Assembly (NCBI GenBank): GCA_017539645.1
Contig: JAFYCM010000032.1
Span: forward strand, 1 to 52,169
Direction of reading: 5' to 3'
Source of the DNA: Bacteroidales bacterium
GTDB taxonomy: Bacteria > Bacteroidota > Bacteroidia > Bacteroidales > Marinilabiliaceae
Length of the DNA: 52,169 nt
In this document: in pieces, positions 21,148 to 21,523 of the stretch
Numbering within the stretch: the stretch's first letter is position 1
How the letters are laid out: each line of letters starts with the position of its first letter
Notes under the pieces: model-generated
Database searches by the model: none
What the model was told of the DNA's origin: nothing
The model's input: only the letters and a program-made list of their open reading frames with translations
Position numbers and translations under genes: made by a program

Positions 21148-21185
21148 GACGTGATTGATAGATTGGGCATTTACTATCAATCACT

Positions 21186-21385
21186 TGCGATAGAGGTAAA
21201 AAAGAAAGGTGCAGGCCTTTCTATCGCATTCACGAGGAGCGTCGGATGAACCCCGTTTGTACCCAAGAATAGCCCACACCAAGCGGTGCGAGCATCAACA
21301 TTTATGGGTACAAACAGAGCGCAATAAACGCTCAGCGCGAATAGCTAATTACTCTATCGACTTCAAAATCAAGAGTTTCCGACGC
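21186..21385 (-). ncRNA. Structured RNA leader or small RNA with terminal attenuator, upstream of the restriction-modification-like gene
   Basis: Read on the minus strand 5' to 3': closing stem GCGTCGGA (21385-21378) with TCCGACGC (21246-21239); hairpin ACTCT (21376-21372)/AGAGT (21355-21351); hairpin GAGCG/CGCTC (21333-21317); ten-base stem GTTTGTACCC (21315-21306)/GGGTACAAAC (21264-21255) capped by GCTCGCACC-GCTT-GGTGTGGGC (21293-21272). In the cap, two pairs are G-U on the minus strand but C-A on the plus strand, so the minus strand is the functional one. After the closed multibranch domain comes a terminator AGAAAGG-N6-CCTTTCT plus T5 (21222-21198). An alternative nine-base stem TGCGATAGA/TCTATCGCA (21228-21220 with 21194-21186) overlaps it. 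The start codon of the next gene is 39 nt further. It is laid out like a riboswitch or a terminated sRNA. I recognise no family. Confidence 0.6.
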
Positions 21386-21523
21386 TTTTATTTTGAATGC
21401 GAATAATAGCTAATGCTTAGTTTATGTTAAGGTTTTGTTGTTTCTGTTTTTGTATGAATAATTTTTGCGGTCGTAAAATTAGCATCATTAGTAGATTATA
21501 AAAAGAGTGCCGATGGCTATTGT
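21386..21523. other. AT-rich spacer upstream of the structured RNA
   Basis: It contains a near-duplicate of ATTAGCTATT-CGC found inside the RNA (plus 21338-21349 region versus 21395-21415), but no clear promoter with normal -33/-7 spacing on the minus strand. No gene seen. Confidence 0.3.

Follow-up and report, generated by a model that had tools for sequence, protein, structure and literature searches.

A conserved, pseudoknotted leader RNA with a candidate strand exchange precedes restriction-modification and other genes in Bacteroidota

The window, that is, the whole 52,169-nucleotide stretch of Bacteroidales DNA analysed here, carries on its minus strand a restriction-modification-like (R-M) gene preceded by a structured leader RNA of about 220 bases (21416–21198; Table 1). 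The leader was delimited by a covariance-model match over 215 model positions (1.8e-42), and the window copy, itself one of the 76 copies in the model, scores 200.4 bits. Conservation among the copies breaks off abruptly at the 5' edge, at 21416 (98 of 120 rows left after thinning), which is consistent with a transcript start at about this position. REP-like palindromes lie upstream of the leader, between 21520 and 21610, and were found at 35 places in the window's own genome, a count that includes the query and reverse matches.

The downstream gene encodes, by its motifs only, a putative type IIG R-M enzyme. The protein contains an N-terminal ID..EAK as well as DCCAGTGNLL and NPPY, a combination that we take to be type IIG-like. 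An earlier note on this DNA had called the gene R-M-like; the motifs are in line with this, and the protein has no sequence match in Pfam, NCBIfam, PADLOC or PDB. Alignment by hhalign to other methylases was weak both at motif I (probability 1.6%) and at the N-terminus (59.9%), and the predicted structure of the enzyme has a mean pLDDT of 34. In a close relative (L033, 4288–4725) the leader is kept, and the reading frame that corresponds to the window gene ends after 56 codons.

Table 1. Features of the leader RNA and the gene that follows it in the window.
Feature	Position	Strand	Sequence	Remarks
Downstream gene, 821 aa	18682..21147 (ATG 21147)	minus		type IIG-like by motif
P1, 5' strand	21395..21401	minus	CGCATTC	partner 21231–21225; 100% of cells paired; 4/7 pairs compensatory
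P1, 3' strand	21225..21231	minus	GAATGCG	pairing from the alignment
P2, 5' strand	21379..21386	minus	AGCGTCGG	100% paired; C-G/G-C flips
P2, 3' strand	21238..21245	minus	CCGACGCT	paired in the alignment
First pseudoknot, 5' strand	21336..21342	minus	ATTCGCG	87.4% paired
First pseudoknot, 3' strand	21228..21234	minus	CGTGAAT	from the alignment; co-change on the protein tree
Second pseudoknot	21251..21255	minus	CGGGG	partner 21237–21233, around the P2 3' strand; 98% paired
Apical hairpin, 5' strand	21285..21293	minus	GCTCGCACC	97.5% paired
Apical hairpin, 3' strand	21271..21280	minus	GGTGTGGGCT	two alternative partners
Mimic M	21208..21217	minus	GGCCTGCACC	imperfect copy of the apical 5' strand; partner 21280–21271; U-run directly after
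U-run	21198..21207	minus	TTTCTTTTTT	presumed termination site; similar T-rich runs in the alignment
Local 7-bp hairpin	21203..21222	minus	AGAAAGG/CCTTTCT	terminator of the earlier note; present
Second hairpin	21151..21184	minus	GTGATTGATAG...CTATCAATCAC	ends 3 nt before the ATG

The region 21395–21180 folds stably when read as the minus strand (−87.1 kcal/mol, z −7.5) and less so when read as the plus strand (z −5.8), none of 200 shuffles being equally stable in either case. G-U pairs are frequent in the minus-strand reading. The structured minus-strand RNA that the earlier note had described is real and conserved, and all the stems that it named are present, including the 8-bp stem 21385–21378/21246–21239, the long stem capped by 9 bp, the 7-bp hairpin with the T-run, and a 9-bp stem overlapping that hairpin. 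The 8-bp stem had been taken to close the domain; it corresponds to P2, displaced by one base, and the conserved RNA is longer, reaching from 21416 to 21198. The outer stem P1 (21401–21395/21231–21225) and the pseudoknot are additions to that list. P1 and the first pseudoknot overlap at 21231–21228, where the two pairings compete.

The fold was examined in an alignment of 76 copies, drawn from loci L018–L097 and the 14 first loci, without 16 pattern stretches (L098–L113). Ten exact core duplicates among 90 rows were removed, and copies near contig ends, the degenerate L062 and L067, and also L060 and L080 were left out, the last two being intact and counted when downstream genes were sorted. 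P1 (columns 17–23/228–234) and P2 (33–40/213–220) are paired in all cells, with two-sided changes in four of seven and four of eight pairs, respectively. P1, P2 and the apical hairpin together hold 200 cells with two-sided changes, against 71.1 in shuffled alignments, a number that none of 500 shuffles reaches, and sliding the partner strand by one to three columns lowers their pairing to 28–42%. The first pseudoknot (84–90/225–231) has 40 two-sided cells versus 16.4 shuffled (0/500). Two of its five measures do not rise above the shuffles, namely the number of pairs changed on both sides (115/500) and the number of pair types (499/500). A partner slid by −1 has an equal covariation score, yet just 45% pairing. 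The second pseudoknot, CGGGG/CCTCG, has 98% pairing and nine two-sided cells, compared with 47–78% and zero to two for slid partners.

Co-change was also followed on a protein tree, built without the RNA letters from 50 of the methyltransferases encoded downstream. The P1 pair 22/229 and the pseudoknot pair 86/229 change ten times each, both with co-change in eight of eight independent comparisons (p 0.0078), and the P1 pairs 18/233 and 20/231 co-change in ten of ten and eight of nine. Column 229 belongs to P1 as well as to the pseudoknot, and its changes are followed in each, so that selection seems to act on both of these mutually exclusive pairings. The one apex pair placed on this tree, 164/175, changes from A-U to G-U and shows no co-change (0/7). 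The leader has a conserved structured domain, as riboswitches do, with covariation behind it; covariation and conservation among related copies, which the earlier note had asked for, were both found.

Within this domain, the 3' strand of the apical hairpin (21280–21271) can pair with its own 5' strand or with M (21217–21208). Pairing between apex and M is found in 97.4% of cells (96.0% when shuffled), with 17 two-sided cells versus 2.0 in shuffles (0/500); for pair types the corresponding figure is 41 of 500 shuffles. The apex and M of one copy match each other better than apex and M taken from different copies, both in 77 long copies (20.64 versus 18.08) and in 84 short relatives described below (19.24 versus 17.38), with 0 of 5000 permutations reaching the matched value in either set and a few misplaced mimic windows (e.g., L254) kept in the test. 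The excess holds after thinning to less than 65% identity (15 long and 29 short copies; 0/10000 each), and in 11 short copies thinned to less than 55% identity 5 of 10000 permutations reached it. By eye, the helix is rebuilt with different letters in the distant copies L159, L150, L152, L161 and L163, and just a 5-bp core of it remains in the distant group L154–L158. Changes in single switch pairs were too rare for significance on the tree. In the window, the apex is calculated at −15.6 kcal/mol, apex with M at −16.4 kcal/mol and the local hairpin at −6.9 kcal/mol. Mutually exclusive pairings of the expression-platform kind are seen here in sequence comparison and calculated energy only. As in an intrinsic terminator, the M-apex helix is GC-rich, is followed at once by the U-run and lies ahead of the ORF.

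Ahead of the start codon, 108 of 123 loci have a second hairpin of at least 8 bp, compared with 19 of 123 when each locus was subjected to one mononucleotide shuffle. Pairing of this hairpin with an invariant 5' segment of the leader, GCATTAGCTATTATTC, was considered and set aside; both sides are nearly invariant, and L163 has the segment without the hairpin. A leader peptide appears unlikely, as the one frame examined in the window, which runs ATG...TGA across the apex, seems by eye to be broken by indels and start changes in other copies.

The earlier note had placed the switch elsewhere, between the local hairpin as terminator and the 9-bp stem 21228–21220/21194–21186, located 39 nt before ATG 21147. 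This stem is present in the window, and the pair does not constitute the conserved switch. At least seven contiguous pairs of the 9-bp stem occur in 5 of the 98 copies scored (window, L033, L152, L153 and L154); L152 and L153 qualify only by wobble-rich pairing and L154 pairs another segment, so that the stem proper is confined to the window and to L033, its close relative. The local hairpin is paired in 96.6% of cells versus 96.7% in shuffles, with one two-sided cell versus 1.5; it was therefore dropped as a covarying terminator and retained in a rival reading considered below.

A DNA search of 61 genomes returned related stretches in nine; the genome from which the window comes has three such places. 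A degenerate pattern of the 5' end retrieved 96 stretches in assemblies named Bacteroidales, Bacteroidia, Bacteroidetes or their families, one of them named 'uncultured bacterium' and many bearing gut or rumen isolate names. The 76-copy model matches all 96, including five truncated at contig ends and the degenerate copies L062 and L067. With stricter filters, the same model finds 43 loci, which belong to 24 of the 393 genomes searched from the order. No leader match was obtained in viral contigs with the degenerate pattern or in plasmid and phage collections with blastn, and a phage- or plasmid-borne element was discarded as an explanation on these grounds.

The ORF following each copy was defined as the longest one starting between −12 and +160 nt after the RNA, on the sense side only. 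It starts at a median of 42 nt (middle half 38.5–46), and between 5 and 65 nt in 115 of 123 loci. An EcoRI-type methyltransferase, recognised by its N-terminal motif, follows in 82 of the 123. Because the pattern search favours close relatives, the 43 model hits are a fairer sample. These were sorted by hand from a set of loci cleared of nine duplicates, seven through exact duplicates and three (two from genome G054 and one from G002) through a named contig with the same leader: 30 lie directly ahead of R-M genes of unrelated families, one ahead of a DISARM-type helicase and 12 ahead of other genes. Twenty of the R-M genes are EcoRI-type methyltransferases by motif, confirmed by Pfam in both proteins scanned, one of them from the 43. 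The other ten comprise three MmeI-type genes (one from a Pfam scan and two from likeness), two type IIG-like genes (the window gene and a relative), two N6/N4 methylases, a D12 methylase, a Tsp45I nuclease and a ResIII-HNH gene. The helicase belongs to the SNF2 type, with DrmD of DISARM as its best PADLOC match. The remaining 12 genes are neither R-M nor known defence: three sulfatase-fold genes, one GDSL hydrolase, four small HTH-like ORFs recognised by eye (two of the four were scanned and lacked a Pfam match) and four that are unassigned or secreted. The pattern set adds a C5 methylase (L053), further IIG-type enzymes at L058 (by PADLOC) and at L066 and L070 (from their resemblance to the window gene), glycosyltransferases at L100 (by Pfam) and L060 (by likeness), and an Mfd gene (L044).

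The EcoRI-type methyltransferase gene is usually followed by one for a GmrSD_N+HNH nuclease (by eye; Pfam in two of two tested), classed by PADLOC as REase_II in the one tested. Where the next gene was examined, one leader usually stands ahead of both methyltransferase and nuclease. Among 15 full-length EcoRI-type methyltransferase matches in 41 relatives, the leader lies directly upstream of ten, and none was found at five. The window's own genome has five N6_Mtase matches; a short form of the leader lies upstream of one (C38), and no leader was found at C37, C21, C17:27724 and C74, few candidates per genome having been scored. Two further observations concern individual loci. At L044 (4471–7999), where the Mfd (TRCF) gene follows, no clear hairpin lies at the start codon, and the leader is perhaps a relic. 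At L145, L148, L149, L163, L085 and L300, tiny, mutually similar HTH-like ORFs of 68–93 aa, possible regulators, follow the leader or its short form, with no Pfam match for the three scanned (L145, L163 and L085).

Short relatives of about 165 nt keep the apex, the mimic and the U-rich end, and by eye lack the local hairpin. A model built from 13 of them, which leans on sequence because its automatic structure is poor (16 pairs), also recovers the window element (7.6e-8). Among 395 Bacteroidota genomes it has hits in 56, and within the order in 119 of 295, frequently at more than one place; the copy counts are lower bounds and absences weak, because only 7–9 candidates were scored per genome. 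Such relatives, for instance L206, L193 and L301, are widespread in Bacteroidota. By the same rule as above, 35 of 40 short copies examined have a following ORF. Judged by eye, these ORFs are mostly of secreted or surface type, SusC-like receptors, sigma-factor-like, regulators or without assignment, and only one copy examined (L298) precedes an MmeI-type gene. As genes after the short relatives are mostly not R-M, the R-M link is a feature of the long branch. In short forms (e.g., L183, L271 and L241), the mimic can also pair with a site about 20–60 nt downstream (z 5.6), better when matched than when mismatched (0/5000), with many of the best sites at +20 to +35. In long forms, M has no preferred downstream partner (z −0.4).

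Taken together, the comparisons point to the leader as a probable cis-acting attenuator of the genes downstream, and the tight spacing to the sense ORF argues for control in cis over a stand-alone RNA. By sequence comparison, the RNA from about 21416 onwards folds into P1, P2, a long stem with the apical hairpin, and two pseudoknots. In the folded domain the apex would stay closed and RNA polymerase would read through. Invasion by M would capture the apical 3' strand, the resulting helix with the U-run would terminate transcription before the R-M gene, and the start-codon hairpin would further hold back the read-through mRNA. Competition between P1 and the pseudoknot for 21231–21228 probably couples folding of the domain to the choice between apex and M. 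The trigger could be a metabolite, a protein or an RNA, and the likely purpose would be to hold or time the expression of R-M genes that are toxic if unbalanced. The earlier note had offered either an attenuator of an R-M gene or a stand-alone RNA; a leader that is conserved and covaries is strongly supported upstream of R-M genes, and the switch proposed there has given way to the one described here.

Speaking against attenuation in this form, a terminator helix that encloses a 53-nt pseudoknotted loop is unusual, and pairing of the apex with M need not mean termination. The opposite sign, with the local hairpin (21222–21203) and U-run as terminator and the apical 3' strand paired with M as antiterminator, is rather unlikely, although a short terminator is the usual kind, the hairpin is almost always paired in the alignment, and it looks strong by eye in the distant copies L152, L153 and L154. 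The same hairpin shows no covariation, reaches only −6.9 kcal/mol in the window, and by eye is weak or absent in L161, L163, L157, L158 and short forms such as L206, where the long-range pairing persists at least partly. A riboswitch proper, in which the P1-P2-P3 domain would directly bind a metabolite or nucleotide signal and gate the switch, is a tentative reading to which we give less than an even chance. It would suit the large size, the pseudoknots and the many invariant bases of the domain, the similar energies of the two states and the diverse set of downstream genes; yet these genes share no common pathway, and no Rfam riboswitch matches. Methyltransferases use SAM, but the sulfatase-fold and HTH-like genes do not suggest it.

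A trans-acting small RNA ending at the U-run, with the gene served by its own promoter, appears improbable. The terminal U-run, the several copies in many genomes and the downstream site available to M in short forms would fit such an RNA, whereas the close ORF, together with the second hairpin in most loci, leaves little room for a promoter, and M of the long forms shows no preference for such a site. Very remote is the idea that the element acts as DNA, as a REP- or MITE-like repeat or as an invertible or recombination site. The element is dispersed, consists of nested inverted repeats, occurs in several copies per genome, and some short copies lie at contig ends; against this stand the frequent G-U pairs and greater stability of the minus-strand reading, the pseudoknots, the tight ORF spacing and the lack of matches in viral contigs (by pattern) and in plasmids or phages (by blastn). 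A mobile repeat would have no fixed orientation to the gene, and here a sense ORF follows within the narrow range given above, in a survey that covered the sense side only. A DNA-inversion switch likewise seems unlikely, the only sign noticed being one ambiguous weak hit; at this place (L009, 1031–1079), the apical hairpin lies on the strand opposite to the other leader-like letters.

The attenuator reading can be extended to an uncatalogued, Bacteroidota-wide class of pseudoknotted strand-exchange leaders, the long branch of which would sense a cellular or phage-related state and switch a regulon of R-M, DISARM-type and cell-surface-modifying genes. We regard this extension as unlikely on present comparisons. 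If true, the leader would be a riboswitch-like master switch for phage defence, and would bear on the long-standing question of how hosts time and balance restriction against modification. One leader common to EcoRI-type, MmeI-type, C5, N6/N4, D12 and DISARM-type genes would amount to general control of defence at the RNA level, and the wider family, with its 119 of 295 genomes of the order, would add a large class of regulatory RNA to a phylum central to the gut.

No known RNA family in Rfam accounts for the leader. The Rfam check suggested by the earlier note gave no family in the window at the gathering threshold (Rfam 15); at E<=10, the best match over the region was snR78 (16.5 bits, plus strand), and nothing sensible appeared. 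A scan of 20 loci with short or distant copies likewise gave no match over the RNA, the three tRNAs found in L163 lying elsewhere. The portions of the open-access PMC literature covered contain no description of such a leader; PMC8040213 places thousands of candidate RNAs in its supplements, which may list it. Motifs of the same taxon have been reported in Weinberg 2010 (Bacteroidales-1, Bacteroid-trp, Bacteroides-1, Flavo-1 and 6S-Flavo; PMC2864571), and those with an Rfam entry gave no match, while GUCCY-hairpin and Bacteroides-2 carry no Rfam number in its table and fall outside the Rfam comparison. We class the leader as a new family of a known kind of element, the structured attenuator leader, in which both the strand-exchange layout and the gene set are unusual.

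In transcription-attenuating riboswitches, such as the ZTP riboswitch, the terminator competes with a strand of the aptamer. The leader described here shares with this type its position in a 5' leader, a compact pseudoknotted domain, a strand with two partners and a U-run before the gene. It differs in that the contested strand lies within P1-P2 as part of an apical hairpin, at a distance of 53 nt upstream of M, in that R-M genes follow, and in that Rfam holds no match. The textbook answers to R-M control are C proteins or antisense RNA. Like these, the proposed control would limit a pair that is toxic if unbalanced; unlike these, it would need neither, and would use a structured sense leader common to unrelated R-M types. 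In the AbiF system (PMC12373285), a structured RNA (RCd22) lies next to an anti-phage gene and lowers its expression; this RNA contains abiF motifs and has a single protein family as its binding partner. The adjacency is shared here. Unlike this RNA, and unlike AbiF-type or type III toxin-antitoxin RNAs with one dedicated protein family downstream, the present leader stands ahead of many unrelated enzyme families.
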